DNA of 64,000 bases from Hamadaea tsunoensis DSM 44101. Lineage in GTDB: Bacteria; Actinomycetota; Actinomycetes; Mycobacteriales; Micromonosporaceae. The stretch spans positions 124,001-188,000 of the forward strand of contig NZ_AUAX01000017.1 of NCBI RefSeq assembly GCF_000428945.1. Direction: 5' to 3'. Shown piece after piece: positions 46,181 to 64,000 of this stretch (positions are counted from its first letter, which is position 1; every line of letters starts with the position of its first letter). Below the pieces are notes generated by a model, which ran no database searches, was not told the DNA's origin, and was given only the letters and a program-made list of their open reading frames with translations. The position numbers and the translations under genes were made by a program.

Positions 46181-46693
46181 CTACTCGGGACGGCCGTCGG
46201 CGAGCCACTGGGCGAGGCCGCGCAGCCCCACCGCCCACCGCCCGAGGTCGGTGACCTCCGCGTGCCCCGTGACGACCGTCAGCAACTCGGCCACCGCCTC
46301 GTCCGACCGCTTCGCCTCGTTGAGGGTCAGCGCGCGGAAGACGCGTACCGAGTCGGATTCGGGGAACTCCGCGCGGGCCCGCTCCAGCACCGCAAGCGAC
46401 GCGTCCAGATCGCCCAGCCAGCGCAGCGTGCTCGCGTACTGGCACAGGCAGCGGCGCAGGACGTCGCCGTCCAGGCCGAGGGCGAGGGCCCGCTCGTAGT
46501 AGCCGCGGGCGGTCGCCTCCTCACCCGCGCTGTCGTAGGCGCCGCCCACCTCGTAGACGAGGACGGGGTGGTCGGGGTGCTCGGCCAGCAGCGCCTGGAA
46601 GTAGGCGATCGTGGGCGCCATGTTCGCCCGGTCGCGCTCGTCGTAGCCGCGCTGGATCGCCGCGGCCAGTTCAGGCGTCAGGTCGGTCGTCAT
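46181..46693 (-). CDS. TPR protein
   Basis: 170 residues with about three tetratricopeptide repeats (VYEVGGAYDSAGEEATARGY, CQYASTLRWLGDLDASLAVL, FRALTLNEAKRSDEAVAELL). No signal peptide; cytoplasmic protein-protein interaction module. This short form is widespread in Firmicutes and actinomycetes as an uncharacterised TPR family. It is divergent from a SARP regulator across 112 bases, which may or may not be meaningful. Confidence 0.82.
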   Translation of the reverse strand: MTTDLTPELAAAIQRGYDERDRANMAPTIAYFQALLAEHPDHPVLVYEVGGAYDSAGEEATARGYYERALALGLDGDVLRRCLCQYASTLRWLGDLDASLAVLERARAEFPESDSVRVFRALTLNEAKRSDEAVAELLTVVTGHAEVTDLGRWAVGLRGLAQWLADGRPE

Positions 46694-46805
46694 GTGTCGC
46701 TGCCCCCAGGTCGCTGCGTTTGAAGATCAACCCACCCTATCCTGTACGCGGATCAGCGCGGCCGGGTGTTACCTTCCAGCAAGATCACAGGTGGGGAGGT
46801 GGGGC

Positions 46806-51855: not shown

Positions 51856-53040
51856 TCAGCGCAGGATTCCCGTGTGTCCCAGCGAATAGCGGCCCGGCTG
51901 CGGCCAGATGCAGAGGCCGTGCGGATTCGCGCCGACCGGGATCTTCGCCAGCAGCCGTCCATCCACAGTGGAGATGGCGTACACGACGTCGTCGTAGCGG
52001 CCCGACAGCCAGAGCACCTTGCCGTCGCTGGACAGGCCGCCCATGTCCGGGCTGCCGCCGCCGGGGATGCGCCACTTGGCCACCAGCCGCTGGGTCGCGA
52101 AGTCGAGCAGGGAGATCGACCCCTCGCCCCGGTTGGTGATGTACAGGTGACGGGAGTCGCGGCTGACGTACAGCCCGTGCGCGCCGGTGCCGGTCGGCAG
52201 GAAACGCGGCCGGGTGAACGCGTCGCCGTCGAGGATCCACACCCCGTTGCTGTGCATGTCGGCGATGTACCAGGTACGCCCGTCCGGCGAGATCTTGACG
52301 TCCTGCGGCATCGGATGGGTGGCGGGCAGGTGCTGCTGCCCGAGCAGTCTCATCGCGGCGGTGTCGACCTTCAGCAGGTCGCCGGAGAATTCGCAGCTGG
52401 CGATGAAGTAGCGGCCGTCGGGGGAGAAGTCGGCATGGTTGACGCCGTCGCAGGACACCGGCAGCGTACGCACGACCCGCAGGGTGTGCGCGTCGCGGAA
52501 GACGATCTGGTGCGCGGCCTCCGACATCACCATCGCGTACCTGCCGTCGGGCGTGAAGTAGAGGTTGTACGGGTCGCCGACGGGGATCGGCTTGCCGAAC
52601 CGGCCGGTCGCCGGGTCGATCGGGGTGAGCGCATTGCCCTGGTCACTGTTGACATACAGCGTACGCAGATCCCAGGACGGCACGACGTGCTCGGGACTGT
52701 GCGGCACCCGGACGGTGGCCAGCACCTTGTACGTCGCCGGATCGATGACGGTCACCGAGTCGCCGCCCTGGTCAGGCACGTAGACGCGGACCGGATCGTG
52801 CGCGACCGCCGGCGACAGCTGGCCGGGCCGGTCCGCCGCGTACAGGTCGTGCGGGTCGAGCAGCGCCGGCATGCCCGGCAGCGCGGCGCCGGGGGCGGTG
52901 ACGGCATCGGGCGCCGGGGACATGTGGGACAGGGGCATCGGCATCCCGCTCATCGGATCCGACGCGGCCGGCGGGGTCGCGGCCGACGGGCTGCCGCAGG
53001 CCGACAGCAGTACCAGCGCCGCCAGGCCGAGCCGCCTCAT
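51856..53040 (-). CDS. YncE-like beta-propeller lipoprotein
   Basis: 394 residues. Lipobox LLSAC with Cys15, so anchored outside the membrane. A Met/His-rich linker (PMSGMPMPLSHMSP) follows, which could bind copper. The rest is a seven-bladed YVTN/YncE-type propeller (DSVTVIDPATYKVLATVRVP, TLYVNSDQGN, HLYITNRGEGSISLLD, GGLSSDGKVLWLSGRYDD). ATG 53040 overlaps the stop of the deacetylase-like gene (ATGA), so both are made from the promoter at 53851. Propeller function is open: scaffold, sensor or wall-binding protein. Confidence 0.87.
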   Translation of the reverse strand: MRRLGLAALVLLSACGSPSAATPPAASDPMSGMPMPLSHMSPAPDAVTAPGAALPGMPALLDPHDLYAADRPGQLSPAVAHDPVRVYVPDQGGDSVTVIDPATYKVLATVRVPHSPEHVVPSWDLRTLYVNSDQGNALTPIDPATGRFGKPIPVGDPYNLYFTPDGRYAMVMSEAAHQIVFRDAHTLRVVRTLPVSCDGVNHADFSPDGRYFIASCEFSGDLLKVDTAAMRLLGQQHLPATHPMPQDVKISPDGRTWYIADMHSNGVWILDGDAFTRPRFLPTGTGAHGLYVSRDSRHLYITNRGEGSISLLDFATQRLVAKWRIPGGGSPDMGGLSSDGKVLWLSGRYDDVVYAISTVDGRLLAKIPVGANPHGLCIWPQPGRYSLGHTGILR

Positions 53041-53813
53041 GCCAGCAGCTCCGTCACCGTCACGGCGCGCAGTCCGCGTACCCGCAATCCGGTGAGGACC
53101 TCGGGCAGGGCGTGAATGGTTCCGTCATGGCCGCAGTGCATGCTCACGATCGATCCTTTCTGGACGGACTTCAGCGTGGTGCGTACGACGGCGGCGGGCC
53201 CGGGATCGGTGTAGTCCAGGGAGTCCACGTCGTAGCTCAAGCAGGTGCCGTACCCCGCCCGCGCGGCCTGAACCCGGATGAGCGCCGTCGAGTGTCGGGT
53301 CTGCGACGGGCGGAACCAGCGGCCGGGCGAGCCGGTCAGGTCGCGCAGCACCGTGGCGCAGTCGTTGATCTCCGCGTAGGTGGCGGCGGCATCGCGGTGG
53401 GCGATGTCGATGTGATGTTGCGTGTGGTTGCCGAGTTCGTGGCCGTGGGCGGTGATCCGCGCCGCGAGGTCGGGTGCCTGGGCCAGCCAGGCGCCGACGG
53501 CGAGGACGGTGCCCCGGGCGCCGCCCGTCTCCAGCGCGGCCAGCAGCGCCACGACCTGCGCGGTGGTGCCCTGGCCGTGGAAGGTGAGGGCGACCGCCGG
53601 CCGGTCGCGAGGTCCGTGGACGATCTCGATCGCGGGCCGGTCGGGCGTTGCCGGCGCCGACGCCGGCGGTGAGCCGTCACCGGATGCCGGCAGGCCGCCG
53701 GATGCGGGGGTGGGGATGTTGCCGGGTGGGGGTGCGGTGGTGGAGCAGCCGGCCGCGGCGGCGGCGGTGAGACCGGCCGCGGTGAGCAGGTGCCGGCGGT
53801 TGACGGGTGACAC
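53037..53813 (-). CDS. Polysaccharide-deacetylase-like lipoprotein with altered motif 1
   Basis: 258 residues from GTG 53813 (GGAGG 7 bases upstream). A twin-Arg-like/lipoprotein leader ends with Cys23 (AAAAAGCST). NodB domain from about 70: motif 2 is intact (HELGNHTQHHIDIAH, metal His130 and His134), Arg in GRWFRPSQTR, and LSYDVDSLDYTD and IVSMHCGHDG follow. Motif 1, normally TFDDG with the catalytic and metal Asp, reads LTFHGQG, so both Asp are missing. This variant recurs in actinomycetes in my recollection; it may bind glycan without classical deacetylation. Upstream start candidates lie beyond the predicted promoter and are rejected. Confidence 0.82.
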   Translation of the reverse strand: MSPVNRRHLLTAAGLTAAAAAGCSTTAPPPGNIPTPASGGLPASGDGSPPASAPATPDRPAIEIVHGPRDRPAVALTFHGQGTTAQVVALLAALETGGARGTVLAVGAWLAQAPDLAARITAHGHELGNHTQHHIDIAHRDAAATYAEINDCATVLRDLTGSPGRWFRPSQTRHSTALIRVQAARAGYGTCLSYDVDSLDYTDPGPAAVVRTTLKSVQKGSIVSMHCGHDGTIHALPEVLTGLRVRGLRAVTVTELLA

Positions 53814-53850
53814 GGCGAGACCTCCGTCCGGAACGGCGTCGTTCGCCGGT

Positions 53851-53884
53851 AGCGTCGTCGCCGTCACCTGAGTCGCGGCTGAAC
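53851..53884 (-). promoter_or_regulatory. Envelope-regulon promoter, deacetylase/YncE operon
   Basis: In the direction of transcription: GTTCAG, 7 bases, TCAG, 11 bases, -10 GACGCT (forward-strand 53851-53856). Half-sites occupy 53868-53884. The -10 keeps the key A2 and T6. Predicted leader about 30 bases. Confidence 0.6.
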
Positions 53885-53957
53885 CGCATGAGTCGCCCAC
53901 CAGTCTGTGCAACGGTAGCGTGCGGCCCACCGTGACGATGAGGTTCGAAGGCCCTGG

Positions 53958-53977
53958 CCGGCCGCGGTCGCGGCCGG
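53958..53977 (-). terminator. Possible terminator of the DedA/FetB operon
   Basis: CCGGCCGCG-GT-CGCGGCCGG, a very GC-rich stem about 27 bases after the FetB stop. Confidence 0.35.
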
Positions 53978-54003
53978 GGACGACGCGGTTCGGGCCGCCC
54001 TGG

Positions 54004-54759
54004 TCAGCCTCGTTCGTGTCGCGGCTGGATGACGCCCTGGGCGAACAGCTCGAGCACGATCCAGGCCGCGATTCCCTCGGCCGCCAGCAGCCCGATCAGG
54101 ACGAGCAGCTGGGTCGCGCCGGCCTGCAGGGGGCTGCCGCCGCCGAGCAGTACGCCGACGAACGCGCCGGGCAGCGTGACCAGGCCGACGGTCCGGGTCT
54201 GGTCGAGTGCCGGATGCAGCGCCCGCCCGGCCGGGATGCGGCACAGCTCGCGTACGGCCATGGATTCGACGAAGCCCAGCGAGAGCAGCGCTTCGAACTC
54301 CCCGCGCCGGCCGACCAGCGTGTCCATCACGTGCCGGCCGGACAGCGACGTCGCGGTCATCGCGCCGCCGACGAGGATCCCGGCGATCGGCACGACCGCG
54401 ATCGGTTTCGCCGGCACCGTTCCGGTCGCCACGATCAGGGCGAGGACCGGGCCGGCTCCGGCGACGATCGCCGTACCGGCCCACCACGCGCGTCGCTGCC
54501 GGCCGATCCGCCGGGCGCTGGTGGCGGTGGCGACCAGGACCATCAGGGCGATGAACCCGGCGGTCGCGCCCCAGCGGGTCAGCACCCAGGCGAGGATCGC
54601 CGACACGAGGGCCAGCTGTGCGACCGCCCGCAGGGTCGCGGTGACGACCGCCCGCCAGACGTGCAGGCCGGCGAGGGCGGTGACCGCCGCGGCCGCGAGG
54701 GTGAGGAGGACCAGCACGACGCCGAAGGTCACGCCGAAATGGACGCCGGTCGTGCTCAC
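54004..54759 (-). CDS. fetB: FetB/UPF0014-type membrane permease
   Basis: 251 residues with seven predicted helices. The UPF0014 signatures are visible: RAVAQLALVSAILAWVL, IAVVPIAGILVGGAMTATSL, RGEFEALLSLGFVESMA, and LVTLPGAFVGVLLGGGSPLQ near the end. FetB is the membrane part of an iron-export ABC system with the ATPase FetA. No FetA is adjacent. Instead GTG 54759 overlaps the DedA stop by GTGA, so it is made with DedA. The Gly/Pro-rich LPGAFVG segment is the most conserved region. Iron export is a family inference; role here may be different. Confidence 0.85.
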   Translation of the reverse strand: MSTTGVHFGVTFGVVLVLLTLAAAAVTALAGLHVWRAVVTATLRAVAQLALVSAILAWVLTRWGATAGFIALMVLVATATSARRIGRQRRAWWAGTAIVAGAGPVLALIVATGTVPAKPIAVVPIAGILVGGAMTATSLSGRHVMDTLVGRRGEFEALLSLGFVESMAVRELCRIPAGRALHPALDQTRTVGLVTLPGAFVGVLLGGGSPLQAGATQLLVLIGLLAAEGIAAWIVLELFAQGVIQPRHERG

Positions 54760-55430
54760 CGCTGGATCGTATCCACCTGCTCCGCGGCCGCCGCACGCGC
54801 GCGGGCCCGGCGCCGGCCCCGCACGATCTCGATCGCGACCGGGATGAACGACACCGCGACGATCGCCACCAGGATGATTTCGATGTTGTCGGCGACGACG
54901 GGCAGCCGCCCGAGGAAGTAGCCCGCGACCGTGACCGCGGTTCCCCAGGCCACGCCGCCGATGATGTTGTAGGTCACGAACGTGCGGTAGCGCATCCCGG
55001 CGGTGCCGGCCACGATCGGGGCGAACGTACGCACCAGCGGCACGAACCGGGCGAGAACGATCGACCGGGCTCCGTGCCGGTCGAAGAAGTCGCGGGCCTG
55101 CCGCACGTAGTCCTGCTTGAACAGCCGGGCGTCCGGTCTGCGGAACAACGCCGGCCCGACCTTGCGCCCGAACAGGTAGCCCACCTGGTCGCCGAGGACC
55201 GCCGCGACGCAGATCACCAGGATCACCACCCACAGCGGGTAGTGCAGGTAGCGGTCGGAGGCAACGAGGAGACCGGCGGTGAACAGCAGCGAGTCGCCCG
55301 GCAGGAAGAAGCCGATCGCCAGGCCGGATTCGGCGAAGACCATGGCCGCGATGCCGATCAGGCCGAACGCCGAGATCAGCTGCGTCGGGTCGAGCACCCC
55401 CGACGAGGTCGAGGCCAGCTGGCTCACCAT
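54756..55430 (-). CDS. DedA/SNARE-associated-family membrane protein
   Basis: 224 residues. DedA proteins recycle polyprenyl or phospholipid carriers across the membrane and affect envelope stress. Signature regions: FGLIGIAAMVFAESGLAIGF, FLPGDSLLFTAGLL, the basic FFDRHGARSIVLARFVPLVR and TFAPIVAGTAGMRYRTFVTY with the conserved Arg and Pro. GGGAGGA precedes ATG 55430. First gene of the operon with FetB, expressed from the shared-type promoter at 55465-55498. A role in undecaprenyl-phosphate recycling fits the PAP2 phosphatase of the same regulon. Confidence 0.92.
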   Translation of the reverse strand: MVSQLASTSSGVLDPTQLISAFGLIGIAAMVFAESGLAIGFFLPGDSLLFTAGLLVASDRYLHYPLWVVILVICVAAVLGDQVGYLFGRKVGPALFRRPDARLFKQDYVRQARDFFDRHGARSIVLARFVPLVRTFAPIVAGTAGMRYRTFVTYNIIGGVAWGTAVTVAGYFLGRLPVVADNIEIILVAIVAVSFIPVAIEIVRGRRRARARAAAAEQVDTIQR

Positions 55431-55464
55431 GTGCGTTCCTCCCACGGGCTCTCTTACGGGCCGT

Positions 55465-55498
55465 AGGCTACGCAGCCGCGGCTGAGAATCCGATGAAC
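55465..55498 (-). promoter_or_regulatory. Envelope-regulon promoter, DedA/FetB operon
   Basis: In the direction of transcription: GTTCAT, 7 bases, TCAG, 11 bases, -10 TAGCCT (forward 55465-55470). Half-sites at 55482-55498. The predicted start gives a leader of about 28 bases including GGGAGGA. Confidence 0.7.
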
Positions 55499-55558
55499 CG
55501 CGGGCGCCGTGACCTGGCCCACCCGATCCGCGGGCGGCGGCGGTTCCAGGGCAGCGGC

Positions 55559-56137
55559 TCACGTGAAGGACAGCGAGTCGGTGACGACGCGCCACGCGTC
55601 GGCGTTGTCGGCACCGTGCGGGCTCGCCAGCGTGACGGAGATCAGGAGCCCCTGGTGGAAGTACCGGTAGCACGCGACGTCGTCGTTGATGATCTTTCCG
55701 GTGACGGGATCGGCCGGCGCGTCGCCGCGATAGGTCGTCACGACCACCGGGCCGGCCGGCCGCGCCACCGTCGACACCGTTCCGTCCGCGTACCCGGGAG
55801 TGTGCGTCCGGAGGTCGGCCAGGTCCGCGCGGGCGCCGTCCTCGGTCGGAGCGGCGGCCGTACGCGTCTCCTGCAGCCGGATCGTGTTGAGCCGGTCGGT
55901 CAGCACCGTCGAACCGTCGGGCCGGGTGGTCGCGGTCCAGCCCGCGGGCACCTTGATCGTGAATCCGGGCTGACCGGAGTAGACGACGAAGGCCTGGTTG
56001 TCGGGAATGTCGCCGATCCGGGTCGTCTCCGCCGCCGGGGGCGCGGACACCGACGGCGGTCCGCCGCATCCGGCCAGACCCACCGCCAGCGCGACCGCCG
56101 CCACGGCGACCGCCCGCCGAAGACGCATCGTGGTCAT
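55559..56137 (-). CDS. Small lipoprotein of unknown function
   Basis: 192 residues. Lipobox LAGC with Cys24 after a clean signal helix (RRAVAVAAVALAVGLAGC). The mature part of about 165 residues is one alpha/beta domain (QPGFTIKVPAGWTATTRPDG, TVLTDRLNTIRLQETRTA, ACYRYFHQGLLISVTLAS), like the LpqN/Mog1-type folds found in actinobacterial lipoproteins. ATG 56137 is placed exactly 7 bases after the predicted -10, so the mRNA would be leaderless; a TTG at 56155 is not compatible with that. A possible accessory sensor for the divergent kinase. Confidence 0.7.
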   Translation of the reverse strand: MTTMRLRRAVAVAAVALAVGLAGCGGPPSVSAPPAAETTRIGDIPDNQAFVVYSGQPGFTIKVPAGWTATTRPDGSTVLTDRLNTIRLQETRTAAAPTEDGARADLADLRTHTPGYADGTVSTVARPAGPVVVTTYRGDAPADPVTGKIINDDVACYRYFHQGLLISVTLASPHGADNADAWRVVTDSLSFT

Positions 56138-56144
56138 GCGGGCG

Positions 56145-56178
56145 ACGCTAGACAACCCGGCCTGAGGGCCGCCTGAAC
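56145..56178 (-). promoter_or_regulatory. Envelope-regulon promoter, lipoprotein gene
   Basis: In the direction of transcription: GTTCAG, 7 bases, TCAG, 11 bases, -10 TAGCGT (forward 56145-56150), then 7 bases to the ATG. Half-sites at 56162-56178. Confidence 0.7.
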
Positions 56179-56203
56179 CCGTGGCGCCGCCGCCCGCGGT
56201 GCG

Positions 56204-56237
56204 CTTCAGCGGACACTAAGGCGCCGGTCCGTACCCT
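56204..56237 (+). promoter_or_regulatory. Envelope-regulon promoter, first kinase operon
   Basis: CTTCAG at 56204-56209, 7 bases, TAAG (one change from TCAG), 11 bases, -10 TACCCT at 56232-56237, then 6 bases to the GTG, so leaderless. Same spacing as the promoters of the target genes; points to autoregulation. Confidence 0.6.
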
Positions 56238-56243
56238 TCAGAG

Positions 56244-57644
56244 GTGACCGCTACCTGGAGGAAGGCGGCGGGTGTCGTCCGCGCCCGCCTCAACAGCGTC
56301 CGGGTACGCACTTCGCTGGCCGCCGCGATCGTCGTCCTCGCCGCGGTCGGCCTGGCCGGCGTCGGGCTGGTCATCCTGGCCCGGCACACCCTCACCGGCA
56401 ACATCGACGACGCGGCCAGCCAGCGCGCGGGGCAGGTCGTCGCGGCGATCAGGTCCGGCGATCCCGCCCTGCTCGACCAGACCCTGCGCCCCGCCGCCGG
56501 TGACCAGACCCTCGTCCAGATCGTCAACCCCGACGGCAAGGTCGTCGCCGCCTCCCCGGTCCTGTCCGGCCGCGTACCGATCCTCGCCGGGCGTCCGGCC
56601 GCCGGCGCGACCAGGTGGGGCACGGCGTACCTGCAGCCGGACAGCGACGACCCCTTCCGCATCGTCGCCACCACCGTTCCCACCGACGACGGCAGCCGTA
56701 CCGTCCTGGTCGCCCAGTCGCTGCGGCCGGTCAACGAGGCGATCGAGCTGATCTCCCGGGCCACCGTCCTGGGCATGCCGATCCTCGCCCTCATCGTCGG
56801 CGGCGTCACGTTCCTGTTCGTCGGGCGTACCCTGCGCCCGGTCGAGGACATCCGCCGCCGGGTCGCCACCATCACCGCCCGCGACCTGCAGGCCCGCGTC
56901 CCCGTCCCGAGCACCCGCGACGAGATCGCCGCCCTCGCCGAGACGATGAACGACATGCTCGACCGGCTGTACACCTCCGCCGACGCCCAGCGCCGGTTCG
57001 TCGCCGACGCCAGCCACGAACTGCGCAGCCCGCTCGCCGCGCTGCAGGTCGGCCTGGAACTCCTCACGCCCGCCACGGCCACCGGCGAGGACGTCGCCCG
57101 GCTGCGTACCGAGACCGACCGCATCTCCCGCCTCGTCGCCGACCTGCTGCTGCTCGCCCGGGCCGACGAGCACGGCCTGCACCCGCGCCTGAACGACCTG
57201 GACCTCGACGACCTCGCGTACCGCTGCCGGCTGCGCCTCATCGGCACCCGCCCCGACGTGATCGTCGACGGCCGGTTCCAGCCCGTCCGGATCACCGGCG
57301 ACGAGCACGAGCTCGAACGGGCCATCGCCAATCTCTGCGACAACGCCGGCCGGCACGCCAAAACCAAGATCACTCTCACCGTACGCGCGGCCGGCACCAC
57401 CGCTCAGGTGCTCGTCGACGACGACGGTCCCGGCGTACCGGCGGCGGAACGGGAACGGATCTTCGAACGGTTCGTACGCCTGGACGCCGGCCGTGCCCGC
57501 GACGACGGCGGCACCGGGCTCGGCCTGGCCATCACCCGGGAGATCGCCCACCGCCACGGCGGAACGGTCACCGTCACCGGCTCACCGCTCGGCGGGGCGC
57601 GATTCGAGCTGCGCCTGCCCGTCGACCACACCACGATGGCATGA
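56244..57644 (+). CDS. Sensor histidine kinase 1
   Basis: 466 residues. Two transmembrane helices (about 24-48 and 173-195) enclose an extracytoplasmic sensor of about 125 residues without cysteines. Then HAMP (about 196-248, RTLRPVEDIRRRVATITARD), HisKA with phospho-acceptor His258 in ADASHELRSPLAALQ, and HATPase_c with N box NLCDNAGRHAK, G1 VDDDGPGVP, F box ERFVRLD and G2 DDGGTGLGLAI. All motifs for kinase activity are present. A close paralogue of the kinase at 60232, identical over long stretches of HAMP and HisKA. Followed after 23 bases by its response regulator, with a 16-bp duplication between them. Confidence 0.93.
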   Translation: MTATWRKAAGVVRARLNSVRVRTSLAAAIVVLAAVGLAGVGLVILARHTLTGNIDDAASQRAGQVVAAIRSGDPALLDQTLRPAAGDQTLVQIVNPDGKVVAASPVLSGRVPILAGRPAAGATRWGTAYLQPDSDDPFRIVATTVPTDDGSRTVLVAQSLRPVNEAIELISRATVLGMPILALIVGGVTFLFVGRTLRPVEDIRRRVATITARDLQARVPVPSTRDEIAALAETMNDMLDRLYTSADAQRRFVADASHELRSPLAALQVGLELLTPATATGEDVARLRTETDRISRLVADLLLLARADEHGLHPRLNDLDLDDLAYRCRLRLIGTRPDVIVDGRFQPVRITGDEHELERAIANLCDNAGRHAKTKITLTVRAAGTTAQVLVDDDGPGVPAAERERIFERFVRLDAGRARDDGGTGLGLAITREIAHRHGGTVTVTGSPLGGARFELRLPVDHTTMA

Positions 57645-57665
57645 GGACACGACGGCATGAGGACA
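57634..57665. repeat. Two 16-bp tandem units at the kinase/regulator junction
   Basis: CGA(T/C)GGCATGAGGACA at 57634-57649 and 57650-57665. The first copy holds the kinase stop (57642-57644); the repeat separates the two genes by 23 bases, whereas the paralogous pair overlaps by 1 base. Confidence 0.8.
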
Positions 57666-57667
57666 CG

Positions 57668-58348
57668 ATGCGCGTACTGATCGTCGAGGACGAAGCGAAC
57701 CTGGCGAGCGTCGTCAAGGCGGGACTGACCGCGGAGGGCTACGCGGTCGACATCATGGCCAACGGCGTCGACGGGCTGTGGGCGGCGACCGAGCACTCCT
57801 ACGACGCGATCATCCTCGACATCATGCTGCCGGGCCTCAACGGCTACGAGGTCTGCCGCACCCTGCGCGGGCGGCGGATCTGGACGCCGATCATCATGCT
57901 CACCGCGAAGGACGGCGAATACGATCTCGCCGACGCCCTCGACCTCGGCGCCGACGACTACCTCACCAAGCCGTTCTCGTTCGTGGTCCTGCTGGCCCGC
58001 CTGCGCGCGGTGACCCGGCGCGGGCATAACGAACGCCCGACGGTCCTCGCCGTCGACGACCTCGTCCTCGATCCCGCCACCCGCACCGTCACCCGGGCCG
58101 GCGACCAGATCACCCTCACCACCCGCGAGTTCGCCCTGCTGGAATTCCTCATGCGCAACAAGGGCGACGTCATGTCCAAACGCGCCATCATCGAGAACGT
58201 CTGGGACATGAGTTTCGACGGCGACGACAACATCGTCGAGGTCTACGTCATGTACCTGCGCAAGAAGATCGACCAGCCCTACGGCCGGGCGACGATCGAG
58301 ACCGTACGCGGCGCGGGCTACCGCGTCGCCACCGACGGCGCGGGCTGA
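57668..58348 (+). CDS. OmpR-family response regulator 1
   Basis: 226 residues: receiver (1-118) with acidic pocket Glu7-Asp8, phospho-acceptor Asp51 (IILDIMLPGLNG), switch Thr in LTAKDGEYD and Lys in DDYLTKPFSF; winged helix (about 130-220) with TTREFALLEFLMRNKGDVMS and VEVYVMYLRKKID. Partner of kinase 1. Predicted to bind the 11-base-spaced TTCAG/TCAG half-sites found at seven promoters in this block, since OmpR-type dimers bind tandem direct repeats. The last codons are part of a 13-bp tandem repeat. Confidence 0.94.
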   Translation: MRVLIVEDEANLASVVKAGLTAEGYAVDIMANGVDGLWAATEHSYDAIILDIMLPGLNGYEVCRTLRGRRIWTPIIMLTAKDGEYDLADALDLGADDYLTKPFSFVVLLARLRAVTRRGHNERPTVLAVDDLVLDPATRTVTRAGDQITLTTREFALLEFLMRNKGDVMSKRAIIENVWDMSFDGDDNIVEVYVMYLRKKIDQPYGRATIETVRGAGYRVATDGAG

Positions 58349-58379
58349 CGGGGCGGACTGACGGGGCGGGCTGACGGGC
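58341..58379. repeat. Three 13-bp tandem units across a stop codon
   Basis: CGG(G/A)CTGACGGG(G/C) at 58341-58353, 58354-58366 and 58367-58379. The first unit contains the stop codon of response regulator 1. Confidence 0.85.
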
Positions 58380-58383
58380 CGGG

Positions 58384-59478
58384 TCAGGCCGGGGAGAGGC
58401 TGAGCCCGGCGAGGCCGCGGACCTGTTCGACGATGTCGTGGTTCCCCGGTCGCGGCGACGGCACCGCCGGATGGCGCAGGAACACGGCGAGCTCCTGCAC
58501 CGTACGGGCCCAGGGCGCCCAACCGGCCTGGTGCAGGGCCTCCGCGCTCATCCGTCCGTGCCCCGCCAGGCTGCGGTACGTGATCACGGGCACGCCGGTG
58601 GCCAGCGCCTCCAGGCTCGTCATCCCGCCGCCGGACTGCACCACGACGTCCGCGGCCCGCAGCAGCCGGGGCATGTCGTCGACCCAGTCCAGGGCGATGT
58701 GCCCGGCCCCCTGCAACCGCCGCCGCGCCGCCCCGTTCTGCCCGCACGCCACGACCGGTACGGCCAGCCCGGTCGCGGCGATGTCGTCGGCGGTCCGGGC
58801 GAACTGGCCCACTCCCCAGGAGCCGGTGACCACCAGCGCGAGCCGCTCGTCGAGGGGCAGGCCGAAATGCCGGCGGGCCGCGAGGCGCTGCGCCGGGGTC
58901 GGCGGCGAGAAGCGCGCGTCGACCAGCGGCCCCGTGACCGCCACGTCCTCGGCGCCCAGGCCGGCGGCCTGCTGCCCGGCGACGCGGTGGATCGCGAAGT
59001 GCCGGTCGATGCCCGTGGCGATCCACAGTGGATGCACGGACATGTCCGTCAGGAACGTCACGGCCGGTACGCGCAGATCCCCCGACCGGCGCAGTTGACC
59101 CAGCAGCTGGCTGGCCAGGGGGTACGTGGAGATGACGGCGACCGTCGACGGCGTCACCAGGTCCAGCAGCCGACCGGCGGCACCGAGCACGGAACGGCGG
59201 GCCAGCCGCAGCCCGGCCGGCCGGGAGCACGCCGCCAGCAGCCAGTCCCAGGTGACCGGCAGCCGATCGATCTGCAGCCGGTACGCCCTTCGCATCACCG
59301 CACCGGACCGCACCAGGTCCACCAGGTCCACGATGGGCGCCTCGAAACCGTCGGCCGCCAACCGGTACGCGATCTGCTGTGCCGCCCGGTCGTGCCCGGC
59401 GCCGAAGCTGCCCGACACGATCAGCACCCGCGGCGGGCCGGTGACGGGGTTCCCGGTGAACGACTTGTCCTGCCTCAC
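58384..59478 (-). CDS. Diacylglycerol-glycosyltransferase-like protein (MGDG synthase/GT28 type)
   Basis: 364 residues, GT-B fold. N-terminal MGDG-synthase signature VLIVSGSFGAGHDRAAQQIA, C-terminal GT28 part with LALVVTGSWGVGQ, VVACGQNGAARRRL and the nucleotide-sugar site VVQSGGGMTSLEALATGVPV. Family members transfer sugar to diacylglycerol or to lipid carriers at the inner membrane face. GTG 59478 is preferred: GGAGG lies 5 bases before it and the predicted transcript starts near 59500; ATG 59490 is possible. Single gene convergent with response regulator 1, from the regulon promoter at 59507-59540. Exact acceptor unknown. Confidence 0.85.
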   Translation of the reverse strand: MRQDKSFTGNPVTGPPRVLIVSGSFGAGHDRAAQQIAYRLAADGFEAPIVDLVDLVRSGAVMRRAYRLQIDRLPVTWDWLLAACSRPAGLRLARRSVLGAAGRLLDLVTPSTVAVISTYPLASQLLGQLRRSGDLRVPAVTFLTDMSVHPLWIATGIDRHFAIHRVAGQQAAGLGAEDVAVTGPLVDARFSPPTPAQRLAARRHFGLPLDERLALVVTGSWGVGQFARTADDIAATGLAVPVVACGQNGAARRRLQGAGHIALDWVDDMPRLLRAADVVVQSGGGMTSLEALATGVPVITYRSLAGHGRMSAEALHQAGWAPWARTVQELAVFLRHPAVPSPRPGNHDIVEQVRGLAGLSLSPA

Positions 59479-59506
59479 GTGCGCCTCCATGGCTCGACAG
59501 CGAGGC

Positions 59507-59540
59507 AACCTAGAGACCGGACGCTGAACACCCGCTGAAG
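59507..59540 (-). promoter_or_regulatory. Envelope-regulon promoter, glycosyltransferase gene
   Basis: In the direction of transcription: CTTCAG, 7 bases, TCAG, 11 bases, -10 TAGGTT (forward 59507-59512). Half-sites at 59524-59540; the proximal one is GTTCAGC in full, the best direct repeat of the set. Confidence 0.72.
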
Positions 59541-59568
59541 ATCGCCGCCCGGGTGCCGTCGCGGTCGA

Positions 59569-60123
59569 TCAGGGGGCGGTCGGGGCCGTCGGAGCCGACG
59601 GCGCGAGCCGGCGGCGGCGAACGACGCGGTCGCCGAGGGCCACGATGCCCACCGCGAGCACGGCGATCACGAGCCCGGCCAGGATGTCGCCCGGATAGTG
59701 CACGCCCACCCACACCCGGGCGAAACCGATCGCCAGCGCCCCGGCACCCAGCAGGATCGACCACCCCCGGTGCAGGAACGCCGCGATCGCGACGGCGATC
59801 GTGAAGGCGGCCGTCGCGTGATCGCTGGGCAGCGAGACACCCGGTTCATGGGCGATCAGCTGATGGACGTGATGGGTCTGAAAGGGCCGGACCTGGTCGT
59901 TGAGGCGCGACAGCACCATGGCGACGGCGAAGGCCACCGCCAGACTCGCCCCGACCAGCACCAGCGCCCGGATCCGCCGCCGCACCAGGGCCTGGGCGCC
60001 GAGGACGAAGGCGCCCGCGAACACGACGTAGATCAACGTCGTGGCGAGGAACTCCATCACGTCGTCGAGGCCGTCGCTGCGCCCGGCCCATCCGTTGATC
60101 AGGGAGAACAGGTGGTAGTTCAT
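59569..60123 (-). CDS. PAP2-family phosphatase, probable undecaprenyl-diphosphatase
   Basis: 184 residues, five or six helices. PAP2 motifs: KxxxxxxRP-like RLNDQVRPF, PSDHATAAF (for PSGH) and RVWVGVHYPGDILAG (for SRxxxxxHxxxD). BcrC-type members convert undecaprenyl diphosphate to the monophosphate and can protect against bacitracin. ATG 60123 gives the natural N-terminus NYHLFSLINGWAGRSDGLDD. The tail ends in a repetitive Ala-Pro-Thr stretch (APSAPTAPTAP) coded by 9-bp repeats up to the stop. Divergent from kinase 2 with both regulon promoters in the 108-base gap. Confidence 0.88.
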   Translation of the reverse strand: MNYHLFSLINGWAGRSDGLDDVMEFLATTLIYVVFAGAFVLGAQALVRRRIRALVLVGASLAVAFAVAMVLSRLNDQVRPFQTHHVHQLIAHEPGVSLPSDHATAAFTIAVAIAAFLHRGWSILLGAGALAIGFARVWVGVHYPGDILAGLVIAVLAVGIVALGDRVVRRRRLAPSAPTAPTAP

Positions 60124-60154
60124 GGTCGTGACCAGCTCCTTCGTTCGGAGTGGC

Positions 60155-60188
60155 ACGTTAGTGACGGATACCTGAAAATCTGATGAAC
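60155..60188 (-). promoter_or_regulatory. Envelope-regulon promoter, PAP2 gene
   Basis: In the direction of transcription: GTTCAT, 7 bases, TCAG, 11 bases, -10 TAACGT (forward 60155-60160). Half-sites at 60172-60188; 15 of 17 bases match the DedA site. Confidence 0.7.
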
Positions 60189-60191
60189 AGC

Positions 60192-60225
60192 CTTCAGCGT
60201 CTCCACAGCCGCACCCGCGTAACCT
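60192..60225 (+). promoter_or_regulatory. Envelope-regulon promoter, second kinase operon
   Basis: CTTCAG at 60192-60197, 7 bases, ACAG (two changes from TCAG), 11 bases, -10 TAACCT at 60220-60225, 6 bases to ATG 60232, so leaderless. Mirrors the promoter of kinase 1. Confidence 0.6.
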
Positions 60226-60231
60226 GCGCGG

Positions 60232-61659
60232 ATGCTCTCGGTCATGGCCCGGATCCTGCGCATCACCCGCGCCCGGCTCGGCGGCGTACGCGTCCGGTCC
60301 GCGCTCGCCGCGGCCGCCGTCGTCTTCGGGGCGGTGACGATCGCCGGCCTCGGCCTGATCTACAGCGCCCAGTCCGGCCTCGCCGGCAACGCCGACGCCG
60401 CCGCCCGCCAGCGCAGCGGGCAGGTGATCACCGCGCTCAATTCGGCCGACCCCGGCGTCCTCGACGAGACGCTGCAGCCGGTCGCCGGAGAGCAGGCCCT
60501 CGTCCAGATCGTCGACGCGCGCGGCGTCGTCCTCGCCGGAACACCGGGCATGCTCCACCGCCCGGCGATGTCCGGCCTGCGCCCGTCGCCGGGGCGCAGC
60601 GCCTCGGAGCAGCGCCACCTGCGTCCCGGCACCGAGGAACCGTTCCGCATCGTCGCCGCCACCGTCACGACCGCCGCCGGCGACCGTACCGTGCTGGTCG
60701 CGCAGTCGCTGCGGCCGGTCAGCGAAGCCGTCGAGGTCCTCACCCAGTCCGCCGTCGTCGCCGTGCCGCTGCTCGCCGCCGTCGTCGGCGCCGCCACGTT
60801 CCTGTTCGTCGGGCGGTCGCTGCGCCCGGTCGAGGACATCCGCCGCCGGGTCGCCACCATCACCGCCCGCGATCTGGACGCCCGCGTCCCCATACCCGGC
60901 ACCCAGGACGAGGTCGCCGCCCTCGCCACGACCATGAACGGGATGTTGGACCGGCTCCAGGCGGCCGCGGAGACCCAGCGCCGCTTCGTCGCCGACGCCA
61001 GCCACGAACTGCGCAGCCCGCTGGCCGGCCTCCAGCTCGGACTGGAGGTCCTCACCCCGGCGACGATCACCGCGGAACACCTCGCGGGCCTGCACGCCGA
61101 AGCGCGACGTGTCGCCCGCCTCGTCGACGACCTGCTGCTGCTCGCCCGCGCCGACGAGAACGGCCTGCGACCACGGCTCGACGACGTCGACCTCGACGAC
61201 CTCGGATACCAGCACGCCCAGCGGCTGCGCCGGCAACATCCCCACCTGACCGTCGTCCTGCGGTTGCGGCCCGCGCGCGTACACGCCGACGCGCACCAGC
61301 TCGATCGCGTGATCACCAACCTGTGCGACAACGCCGCCCGCCACGCGCGCAGCACGGTCGTCCTCACGACCAGCACCACCGACGCCACCGCCACCGTCAT
61401 CGTCGACGACGACGGCCCCGGCATCGGTCCGGCCGACCGGGCCCGGATCTTCGGCCGGTTCGTACGCCTCGACGACAGCCGTACCCGTCACGACGGCGGC
61501 ACGGGGCTGGGCCTGTCGATCTGCCGCGAGATCCTCCACGGCCACGACGGGGCCCTGCGGGTCGGCGAATCGCCGTCGGCCGGCGCCCGATTCGAGGTCA
61601 CCCTGCCGCTGTCGCGCCGTGCTCTCGTCACGACCTCGGCCATGACCGGAGACGCCTGA
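60232..61659 (+). CDS. Sensor histidine kinase 2
   Basis: 475 residues, same plan as kinase 1: helices at about 24-46 and 172-195, extracytoplasmic sensor of about 125 residues, HAMP (SLRPVEDIRRRVATITARDL), phospho-acceptor His258 in ADASHELRSPLAGLQ, ATPase motifs NLCDNAARHAR, VDDDGPGIG, GRFVRLD and DGGTGLGLSI. The sensor domain diverges more than the cytoplasmic part (its middle, RPAMSGLRPSPGRSASEQ, is unlike kinase 1), so the two may detect different signals. ATG 60232 is supported by the -10 placed 6 bases before it. Overlaps its regulator by 1 base. Confidence 0.93.
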   Translation: MLSVMARILRITRARLGGVRVRSALAAAAVVFGAVTIAGLGLIYSAQSGLAGNADAAARQRSGQVITALNSADPGVLDETLQPVAGEQALVQIVDARGVVLAGTPGMLHRPAMSGLRPSPGRSASEQRHLRPGTEEPFRIVAATVTTAAGDRTVLVAQSLRPVSEAVEVLTQSAVVAVPLLAAVVGAATFLFVGRSLRPVEDIRRRVATITARDLDARVPIPGTQDEVAALATTMNGMLDRLQAAAETQRRFVADASHELRSPLAGLQLGLEVLTPATITAEHLAGLHAEARRVARLVDDLLLLARADENGLRPRLDDVDLDDLGYQHAQRLRRQHPHLTVVLRLRPARVHADAHQLDRVITNLCDNAARHARSTVVLTTSTTDATATVIVDDDGPGIGPADRARIFGRFVRLDDSRTRHDGGTGLGLSICREILHGHDGALRVGESPSAGARFEVTLPLSRRALVTTSAMTGDA

Positions 61660-62336
61660 TGCGCATCCTGATCGTCGAGGACGAGGTCATGCTCGCCGAA
61701 GCCGTACGCGTCGGGCTGACCACCGAGGGGTTCGCCGTCGACGTGATGCACGACGGGGTGGAGGGGCTGTGGGCCGCGACCGAGAACCGCTATGACGTGA
61801 TCATCCTCGACATCATGCTGCCCGGCCTGTCCGGCTACGAGATCTGCCGGACGCTGCGGCAGCGCGACGTGTGGGCGCCGATCCTCATGCTCACCGCGAA
61901 GGACGGCGAATACGACCAGGCCGACGCGCTCGACCTCGGCGCCGACGACTACCTGGTCAAACCGTTCTCGTTCGTCGTCCTCCACGCCCGCATCCGGGCG
62001 CTGTCCCGCCGGGCGGTCGGGCAGCGTCCGACGGTCCTGAGCGCCGGCGATCTCCTCCTCGACCCGGCCACCCACGTCCTCACCCGGGCCGGCGACGTCA
62101 TCCCCGTCACGCCGCGCGAGTTCGCGCTGCTGGAGTTCCTGTTGCGGCACAAGGGAACCGTGATGTCCAAACGGGAGATCATCGACAACGTCTGGGACAT
62201 GCACTTCGACGGCGACGACAACATCGTCGAGGTCTACGTGATGTACCTGCGCCGCAAGATCGATCAACCGTACGGCCGGGCCACGATCCAGACGGTTCGC
62301 CGGGCGGGCTACTTCATCGATCCCGACGGCGCGTGA
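61659..62336 (+). CDS. OmpR-family response regulator 2
   Basis: 225 residues. Receiver with Asp51 (IILDIMLPGLSG), LTAKDGEYDQADALDLGADD and Lys in YLVKPFSF; winged helix with TPREFALLEFLLRHKGTVMS and DNIVEVYVMYLRRKIDQPYG. The recognition region is nearly identical to that of response regulator 1, so both should bind the same half-sites. The ATG shares one base with the kinase stop. Phosphorylated by kinase 2, perhaps also cross-fed by kinase 1. Ends 4 bases before a hairpin shared with the convergent exoprotein gene. Confidence 0.94.
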   Translation: MRILIVEDEVMLAEAVRVGLTTEGFAVDVMHDGVEGLWAATENRYDVIILDIMLPGLSGYEICRTLRQRDVWAPILMLTAKDGEYDQADALDLGADDYLVKPFSFVVLHARIRALSRRAVGQRPTVLSAGDLLLDPATHVLTRAGDVIPVTPREFALLEFLLRHKGTVMSKREIIDNVWDMHFDGDDNIVEVYVMYLRRKIDQPYGRATIQTVRRAGYFIDPDGA

Positions 62337-62383: not shown

Positions 62384-62761
62384 TCAGCAGGAGGTCCGGA
62401 ACTGGCTCGTCTCAAGAACTTCATTGTCGCCGTTGTAGAGCACGGAGAAGTAGCTCTGCGTTCCGGTACCCGTGCAGTGGTACATGGCGGCCGTTCCCCA
62501 CCCGTTGCTGAAGTAGTTGGAGGCCTGCAGCCACTGGTCGCCGCTCCAGTGCGTCCGGTAGAGCACCACCCGGTAGTAGGAGCTGGCGGGGCAGCCGGTG
62601 CCGACGTTGGCGGCGAAGCTGATGTCGGTGCTGGTGCTCTTCCACGGGGTGCTCACGTTGTAGGTACACGAGGCGGCGGTGGCGGGCTCGGCCGAGACGG
62701 CCACCGCCACCGGTACCGAGATCAGTGCCAGTGCGGCCGCCGCGATGTGACGAATTCTCAT
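62384..62761 (-). CDS. Small secreted four-cysteine protein
   Basis: 125 residues. ATG 62761 with AAAGGA before it, signal peptide at 1-32 ending AEPATAAS. Mature protein of about 93 residues, rich in Ser/Thr/Tyr/Trp, with four cysteines (ASCTYNV, TGCPAS, YHCTG and the terminal SC), so two disulfides. The pattern resembles small beta-rich inhibitor or binding proteins of actinomycetes, but I recognise no family. A pair of 11-base-spaced GCAAAGCC repeats upstream suggests control by the divergent SARP regulator. Confidence 0.75.
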   Translation of the reverse strand: MRIRHIAAAALALISVPVAVAVSAEPATAASCTYNVSTPWKSTSTDISFAANVGTGCPASSYYRVVLYRTHWSGDQWLQASNYFSNGWGTAAMYHCTGTGTQSYFSVLYNGDNEVLETSQFRTSC

Positions 62762-62806
62762 GGCGAATCCTTTCGTTCTCCGGTTGCGGACCATGCTGCC
62801 GGGGAG

Positions 62807-62948: not shown

Positions 62949-64000
62949 GTGGAGCTGCGTGTCCTGGGCGCGGTCGAAATGGTGGTGGGCGGCGCGCTGG
63001 TGCCGCTGCGCAACACCAGCGTCCGCACGGTGCTGTCCGGGCTTCTCATGGAGCCGGACACGCTCATCACCGTCCACGACCTCATTGATCTTGTCTGGGG
63101 TGCGGCCGCTCCGGCCAGCGCAGTCAACCAGATCCAGGTCGCCGTCTCCCGGCTGCGGGGAATGTTCGGTCAGGCCGGCCTGGACGGGCCAGCCGTGCTG
63201 GAGACGCGCCCATCCGGATACCTGCTGCGCCTTTCCGGCTTCGGCGGCGCGCTCAGGTTCGATCTGGCCGAGTTCCGCAGCCATGTCGTCGCTGCGGACA
63301 AGGCCGCCGCCGCTGAGGATTGGGCGCCGGCGAACGCCCGCCTCCACCAGGCTCTGCGGTTGTGGCGAGGACCAGCCTTCCAGGATGTCGGCTCGCCGAG
63401 GGCGGGTGCGTACGCCCAACGCCTGGAACGAGAACGGCAGGGCACGCTCGAACGCCTGCGAGCCACCGAGCTGCTCCTGGGCCGCTATATGGATGCCGCG
63501 ACCGGCCTGTCCGATCTCGATGGATTCCAGCACGAACGGATGTGGTATCTCAGAATCCTGGCGTACGCGCTCGCGGGCCGGCCCCAGCAGGCACTGGCCG
63601 ACTACCTGGACGCTCGCCGGCACCTCGTCGAGAATCTCGGCCTGGAGCCCGGCCCCGAGCTGCAGAACCTGCATCAGCTGGTTCTGGCCGGCCGGCCGGC
63701 CGAAGCGTTGACGGTCGTGCGCTCGTGGCTCGCGCCGGTACCGGCCGAACCGGTGATTCCCCGGCAGCTGCCGCCTGATCTGGCCCGTCTTGTCGGGCGC
63801 CGGGCCGAACTGGCCGAGTTGGACCGGGTCCTCGTCAGCTCACCGAGGCGGCCGACGGTCGTCGGAATCTCCGGCATCGGCGGCATGGGCAAGTCGACCC
63901 TGGCCGTACGCGCGGCGCACCTGGCAGCGGAGCGGTTCCCCGACGGGTGCATGTTCGCCGATCTGCGAGCCGGCCAGGCCGGTCCACCCGATACGCGCAA
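62949..64000 (+). CDS. AfsR/SARP-family regulator, cut by the right window edge
   Basis: First 350 residues present. GTG 62949 with GGGGGAG 7 bases before it. Winged helix (1-90: VEMVVGGALVPLRNTSVRTV, NQIQVAVSRLRGMF), BTAD (about 95-245, LRLWRGPAFQDVGSPRAGAY, ARRHLVENLGLEPGPELQNL), then NB-ARC start with VGRRAELAELD and P-loop ISGIGGMGKSTLA at about 307-319. The C-terminal part lies beyond the window. It is divergent from the small exoprotein gene with SARP-like repeats between. Third regulator of this type here, each next to a gene for an exported protein. Confidence 0.88.
   Translation, partial: MELRVLGAVEMVVGGALVPLRNTSVRTVLSGLLMEPDTLITVHDLIDLVWGAAAPASAVNQIQVAVSRLRGMFGQAGLDGPAVLETRPSGYLLRLSGFGGALRFDLAEFRSHVVAADKAAAAEDWAPANARLHQALRLWRGPAFQDVGSPRAGAYAQRLERERQGTLERLRATELLLGRYMDAATGLSDLDGFQHERMWYLRILAYALAGRPQQALADYLDARRHLVENLGLEPGPELQNLHQLVLAGRPAEALTVVRSWLAPVPAEPVIPRQLPPDLARLVGRRAELAELDRVLVSSPRRPTVVGISGIGGMGKSTLAVRAAHLAAERFPDGCMFADLRAGQAGPPDTR

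Follow-up and report, generated by a model that had tools for sequence, protein, structure and literature searches.

The two-component system RapA1/RapA2 (SCO5403/SCO5404) of Streptomyces coelicolor, which lies beside AbsC/SCO5405, is said in the accessible portions of its literature to regulate actinorhodin and coelimycin positively and is listed there with 'copper homeostasis?'; no binding motif or envelope regulon appears in those portions. A related arrangement is considered here in a stretch of 64,000 nucleotides from Hamadaea tsunoensis DSM 44101 (contig NZ_AUAX01000017.1, positions 124,001 to 188,000), hereafter the window, where seven promoters around two kinase–regulator operons (kinase 1 with the response regulator RR1, kinase 2 with RR2) share a box, TTCAK-N7-TCAG, followed by N11 and a relaxed -10, NANNNT. 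Because the box also adjoins related two-component genes in many relatives, it very probably marks the place where a control system of the cell envelope, not described so far, would bind.

Other described regulators resemble this system in part. PhoP of Mycobacterium tuberculosis is the top solved-structure match, nearly tied with 1kgs, and excerpts of its literature describe a tandem dimer on an 11-bp direct repeat with a strict spacer; its motif, however, is TCACAGC-N4-TCACAGC rather than repeats of TTCAG. BasR, or PmrA, of the enterobacterial PmrAB system is an OmpR-family regulator and a more distant PDB match, with a repeat box, autoregulation and surface-modifying targets, and its half-site is CTTAA. 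The half-sites here are TTCAG and YTCAG instead, and we know of no lipid A in these bacteria. AfsR, a SARP and thus of another protein family, has an afs box in which 11-bp direct repeats cover the -35, with a TTCAGC core and a relaxed -10, according to the part of the report consulted (PMC10936776). CutR (CutRS) of Streptomyces is likewise a two-component regulator of extracytoplasmic stress, but its motif was rejected as a match, being TAWATAAA with protease targets in the accessible text (PMC12802291), and CrsR of Actinosynnema was set aside, its authors having found no conserved motif in the portion of their account available. The author of a sequence-only reading of the window knew of no described system with this composition. 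That statement needs qualifying, since the related RapA1/RapA2 is in the literature; OmpR-type regulons are known as a kind, and it is this regulon and its code that were not found in the papers searched. The open-access literature searched held no TTCAG-type RapA1 motif and no envelope regulon of this make-up, which is not proof of absence.

In the window, TTCAK-N7-TCAG matches perfectly five times where 0.14 is expected, a number reached in none of 100 shuffles, and N11-NANNNT lies downstream of all five. A scan for the nine box bases with one mismatch or none, together with the A and T of the -10, returns exactly the seven sites for which the sequence-only reading had claimed one shared layout (Table 1); the only mismatched sites are TAAG at kinase 1 and ACAG at kinase 2, the operons to which it had ascribed a weaker second half-site. 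Its recurrence of half-sites at 11 bases is borne out by direct repeats of that period at the target promoters. Both kinase genes have their start codon 6 bases past the -10. The PAP2 and kinase 2 boxes stand back to back with 5 bp between them, and divergent box pairs with 6–10 bp between the TTCAK ends were counted 17 times in 72 loci.

Beyond the window, the 9.48 Mb genome holds 38 matches to TTCAK-N7-TCAG, against 15 for a reversed-pattern control. Nine of these fall within 25 kb (C15:177868-202510), each with N11-NANNNT, which accompanies one of the 29 remaining matches, inside an open reading frame (ORF) according to a simple ORF caller. The looser pattern TTCA-N8-TCA-N12-TANNNT gives nine matches in the genome, seven of them in the cluster, and none in its control. 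The abundance in coding regions that would have spoken against the code was thus not seen, the full module occurring once outside the cluster, and with nine perfect modules in 25 kb and one elsewhere the regulon is local in this genome. Four perfect sites and one TAAG-type site lie about 11–15 kb past the window end (C15:198925-202495). The genes behind the perfect sites encode an ABC-type ATPase, a DUF347 protein, a second deacetylase and a microprotein, while the TAAG site, with its one mismatch, gives a second DUF347 gene a predicted leaderless start at C15:201108. The box at L031:13634 (C15:200634, minus strand) precedes a possible leaderless membrane microprotein of 40 residues, just before a deacetylase gene. 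Elsewhere, at L047:1501 (C18:161238), TTCAC-N7-TCAA-N11-TAGCGT, with two mismatches and a start codon 8 bases on, precedes a lipoprotein-like gene without a Pfam match, divergent from another OmpR-type regulator.

Among 300 family genomes, 68 contain the strict pattern, with 229 matches in all compared with 17 for the reversed control; when the 22 genomes of genus g12 are set apart, the figures are 84 and 17. Eighty loci were taken, the majority centred on the closest homologues of RR1 and the rest on sites, with six g12 loci kept separate from the other 74. When 90 spacings were tried in the 74 loci, the reported spacing accounted for 59 strict sites, N12 for 6 and the other 88 for 2, and the reversed pattern gave none. 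The box occurs 170 times in these loci, 150 times with N11-NANNNT; at least one box is present in 67 of them and a full module in 65. Sites with one mismatch number 63 at the correct spacing, 40 with a start codon 6–8 bases on, compared with 0–8 matches and 0–2 such start codons at each of eight wrong spacings, and ACAG and TAAG are among the variants tolerated. Read beyond the bases already fixed by the search pattern, the consensus in relatives is TTCAG (93%, otherwise TTCAT) followed by C or G, with C or T before TCAG and C or G after it, and the first base of the -10 is C in 45%, T in 33% and G in 16%. A start codon stands 6–8 bases past the -10 at 90 of the 150 relatives' sites (94 of 159 with the nine of the own genome), other offsets accounting for about 6 of 159 each, which implies leaderless mRNAs; M. 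tuberculosis commonly has both leaderless mRNAs and -10 elements of the form TANNNT, according to the part of the report consulted (PMC3898074).

The same-genus genome G061 shares four of the promoters (PAP2, lipoprotein, DedA and kinase 1), with all 36 half-site bases identical, against 24 of 28 in N7, 27 of 44 in N11 and 21 of 24 in the -10. Here and in the 74 loci, the sites are kept in relatives that have the same genes; the lack of conservation that would have spoken against the code was not seen either. A class-wide scan found a strict match in 39 of 394 genomes, so that the code is mainly a family trait, with the addition of the DedA promoters of genus g70 described below.

The link between the box and one group of regulators rests on a tree of 64 regulators, the genome itself holding 67 Trans_reg_C genes. 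A full module stands within 1.6 kb of 30 regulators, and every one of these falls in a single clade of 41 (support 100/92). RR1 and RR2 were labelled by hand as box-adjacent, and the closest perfect site to each is about 1.5 kb off; none of the 20 own-genome members of the tree outside the clade has a full module within 1.6 kb. An RR1-like gene lies within 12 kb of 34 of 52 strict sites (those with listed places among the 84 outside g12) and not of the other 18, such 12-kb zones making up about 0.3% of those genomes. In genus g4, 18 consensus boxes occur in nine of 11 genomes that have a regulator at least 68% identical to RR1, compared with four boxes in four of 32 genomes picked from those with only a weaker match (Fisher p 5.6e-5); the raw counts, before the consensus removes repeated sequences, are 34 and 24. 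A g4 repeat (TTCATAAGCSGGTCAGAGCCACTCG...GATGAT) with up to eight copies per genome fits the loose pattern and is possibly a multicopy element.

RR1 and RR2 are sisters in the tree and their duplication is older than the split from G061, where one regulator copy, and no second, was found at the cut-off used. Each has the receiver and winged-helix Trans_reg_C domains of the OmpR/PhoB family, with a HisKA/HATPase_c kinase in the same operon, and D51 and K101 of the receiver are invariant across 15 aligned regulators; in such receivers the Asp is the phospho-acceptor and the Lys is conserved. The presumed recognition helix likewise has five residues that do not vary among the 15 (N188, E191, V192, Y193 and R198), and they align with residues of PhoP such as N212 and E215, which contact DNA in the portion of the PhoP report consulted. 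A scan of genome contigs with kinase 1 gave few close named relatives.

Comparison with RapA1/RapA2 runs through g70, a genus taken to be Streptomyces from its gene neighbours. Ten g70 genomes have the strict site and nine were examined; in seven it precedes a DedA gene whose start codon is 6–7 bases past the -10 (the others being L225 and L226), with the VTT domain confirmed in three of the seven products. The same seven genomes have an RR1-like regulator (54–59%) located away from the DedA site and next to a MarR-family gene, and between this regulator and its divergent gene stands another box, perfect in six genomes and off by one base in the remaining one. The divergent products of six loci read as PepSY-like, one having been tested by Pfam. 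At L273 the regulator lies beside MeaB, PepSY and MarR genes, the latter two confirmed by Pfam and MarR also found in L276. This RapA1-type regulator falls in the same 41-member clade, and its neighbourhood matches that of RapA1, which lies near AbsC. The window pair, however, belongs to another subclade and has the order kinase–regulator, not regulator–kinase, and the arrangement of MeaB, PepSY, regulator–kinase pair and MarR seen at L273 is absent from the window. With this different locus organisation, the window system is a relative rather than an ortholog of RapA1/RapA2.

Considering which genes the boxes precede, a script assigned a first gene to 158 of 159 sites (nine from the own genome and 150 from relatives), and Pfam was run on one representative of most first-gene clusters. 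These genes encode regulators (29), DUF347 proteins (20), kinases (18), PAP2 phosphatases (17, and two of a second kind), PepSY proteins (14), glycosyltransferases (8), DedA proteins (7), lipoprotein-like proteins (6), membrane proteins without a Pfam match (5), LPG-synthase-TM/YbhN proteins (5), deacetylases (5, and one further), three each of BacA/UppP, HAD, proline-rich protein and ABC ATPase, two each of GtrA, FAD-binding oxidase-like proteins and ORFs seemingly antisense to a regulator, and single instances of a phosphoesterase, a LysX-type lysyl-phosphatidylglycerol synthase and an unplaced protein. The envelope regulon proposed from the window alone therefore recurs across the 159 sites as a set of envelope-lipid and surface genes, and the sites ahead of regulator and kinase genes are consistent with the autoregulation proposed with it.

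From these observations we infer, with a probability of roughly 0.8, that OmpR-family regulators of the RapA1-like clade bind the repeat, which takes the place of a -35 element, and thereby switch on an envelope regulon to which their own operons belong. Each 33-bp element would be a promoter module, in which a tandem dimer of RR1 and/or RR2 would occupy the 11-bp direct repeat TTCAK-N6-YTCAG, located roughly between -40 and -25 (counted with the start codon as +1). The bound regulator would recruit RNA polymerase with the main sigma factor to the relaxed -10, 11 bp downstream, and many of the resulting mRNAs would start at or beside the start codon. Contact with the sigma factor like that of AfsR is plausible, because the afs box sits at a similar position, -40 to -19. 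Modules ahead of the kinase–regulator operons would provide positive feedback, and the envelope targets would comprise PAP2 and DedA proteins (lipid-carrier turnover), a glycolipid-type glycosyltransferase, polysaccharide deacetylases, membrane proteins of the DUF347 type and lipoproteins, with the sensor kinase presumably responding to envelope stress.

The main alternative is that activators of the AfsR/SARP type read the boxes, because the position and repeats of the afs box resemble them. In the accessible text on the S. coelicolor afsS promoter, the -35 is TTCAGC, the -10 is CACTGT and the afs box consists of two 11-bp repeats, while the 3' repeat of SARP targets lies 8 bp from the -10 (PMC10936776), and the direct repeats here, 11 bp apart near a -10, come close to that geometry. 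SARP candidates are also at hand, with an AfsR-like gene (BTAD, NB-ARC, TPR) at window 46692-49613 and a second SARP-like ORF at 62949-64000, running on into L031, flanking the cluster, and about half of the 67 own Trans_reg_C genes lying in long SARP-like ORFs. We nevertheless regard this alternative as improbable: a SARP-like gene is present in just five of 86 relatives' loci (tblastn, at least 120 aa, E 1e-10), although a distant SARP could still act; a regulator or kinase gene is downstream of 47 of the 159 sites; the boxes track the RR1-like gene within g4; and away from the cluster, in the part of the genome that holds most SARP-like genes, there is one full module. An afsS-like pattern had no match in nine genomes, which carries no weight either way.

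It is also conceivable, if distinctly improbable, that the boxes are bound, alone or jointly, by a paralogous OmpR regulator, for instance the PhoP-like regulator encoded on C28, and that the RR1 and RR2 operons are only targets. Upstream of the C28 regulator (45% to RR1), 60 bp from its start, lies a TTCAGAATTCTTTCAG repeat (L034:3206-3266). The TCACAGC repeats read by M. tuberculosis PhoP have an 11-bp period in the excerpts consulted. Similar repeats make up the PHO box of Streptomyces. The C28 box, however, is without an N11 -10, and presence of the box follows the RR1-like clade. The C28 regulator and its kinase are followed by a protease-like gene. Chance or a compositional artefact of GC-rich intergenic DNA, which short half-sites and an original search done by eye might suggest, is hardly credible against five matches where 0.14 were expected, 229 strict against 17 reversed matches in 300 genomes and one sharp spacing peak.

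Several observations weigh against control by RapA1-like regulators, or at least against its strict form. Eleven clade regulators, including a third one in the own genome (L306, 58% identical), have no full module within 1.6 kb, some of them having a one-mismatch or more distant site instead, and two of the 11 g4 genomes with the regulator lack a consensus box. The rigid spacing first claimed is true of all seven window sites, but N12 also suits 15 of the perfect boxes found in the 74 loci, so that it is not fully rigid. Seven of the 74 loci are without TTCAK-N7-TCAG and nine without the full module, and the loci were picked by regulator similarity, some to include known strict sites, by which per-locus counts are inflated. 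The glycosyltransferase box is degraded in G061, of the same genus. The available SARP description, of 11-bp direct repeats overlapping a TTCAGC -35 (PMC10936776), counts here as well, and the TTCAG repeat before the C28 PhoP-like regulator suggests that other regulators may read similar DNA.

A different use of the module is seen in genus g12 (L183-L186, L280-L292), where box and -10 are repeated one after another. Seventeen loci hold 48 such units, and in 45 of them a GGGG run comes directly behind the -10. The arrays have two to four copies, mostly 85–180 bp apart and often between convergent genes, and nearly all copies are followed by a GAAACCGGGGGCCC-like stretch, most having no gene to drive. 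Among 25 groups with called genes on both sides (one L281 group being left out), 17 have at least two copies and 15 have convergent flanks. Rfam gave no match at the gathering threshold in six array loci, and the folds of eight array transcripts were weak, one having a z below -3. Box and -10 could be a portable, self-contained promoter module belonging to one regulator clade, whose g12 arrays drive short noncoding transcripts or titrate the regulator, a possibility that we put forward only tentatively and consider unlikely.

The features of the window are collected in Table 1. Some starts depend on the method: for the deacetylase the script picks the GTG at 53813, 37 bases past the -10, and the longest ORF starts at 53930, upstream of its box; for DedA the ATG at 55430 was chosen by eye and the script picks a GTG 15 bases upstream; and for the glycosyltransferase the script picks the ATG at 59490, the longest ORF running from 59508. 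A small, secreted-looking ORF lies 3' of RR2 (62384-62764, minus strand) without a box of this kind upstream.

Table 1. Promoter elements and genes of the cluster, in window coordinates.
Feature	Position	Strand	Remarks
Box + -10, deacetylase/YncE operon	53851..53883	-	TTCAG-N7-TCAG-N11-GACGCT
Box + -10, DedA/FetB operon	55465..55497	-	TTCAT-N7-TCAG-N11-TAGCCT; conserved in G061
Box + -10, lipoprotein gene	56145..56177	-	TTCAG-N7-TCAG-N11-TAGCGT; ATG 7 bases past -10; conserved in G061
Box + -10, kinase 1 operon	56205..56237	+	TTCAG-N7-TAAG-N11-TACCCT; GTG 6 bases past -10; TAAG kept in G061
Box + -10, glycosyltransferase gene	59507..59539	-	TTCAG-N7-TCAG-N11-TAGGTT; degraded in G061
Box + -10, PAP2 gene	60155..60187	-	TTCAT-N7-TCAG-N11-TAACGT; conserved in G061
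Box + -10, kinase 2 operon	60193..60225	+	TTCAG-N7-ACAG-N11-TAACCT; ATG 6 bases past -10
YncE-like beta-propeller	51856..53040	-	PF21783, E 1.6e-21; overlaps deacetylase stop codon
Polysaccharide deacetylase	53037..53813	-	PF01522, E 8.6e-18
FetB-like UPF0014 membrane protein	54004..54759	-	PF03649, E 2.9e-44; start overlaps DedA stop
DedA-family (VTT domain) membrane protein	54756..55430	-	PF09335, E 4.9e-22
Lipoprotein-like protein	55559..56137	-	No Pfam match; leaderless geometry; 'lipoprotein' by eye
Sensor histidine kinase 1	56244..57644	+	HAMP, HisKA, HATPase_c
OmpR-family response regulator RR1	57668..58348	+	PF00072 and PF00486
MGDG-synthase-like glycosyltransferase	58384..59490	-	PF06925, E 4.6e-08
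PAP2 phosphatase	59569..60123	-	PF01569, E 3.2e-13
Sensor histidine kinase 2	60232..61659	+	HAMP-HisKA-HATPase (Pfam)
OmpR-family response regulator RR2	61659..62336	+	75% identical to RR1

Control of the envelope regulon by RapA1-like regulators would give a sharply defined and testable binding code to a broad actinobacterial clade of two-component systems, among them the Streptomyces system with the RapA1-type regulator, known until now for its part in antibiotic regulation. Turnover of the lipid carrier and modification of the surface (PAP2, DedA, UppP, LysX and deacetylases) are then predicted to be under the control of these systems, and the constant distances linking box, -10 and start codon would provide a simple means of finding regulon members and leaderless starts in many genomes. 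Such control would tie envelope stress to the physiology of antibiotic producers.

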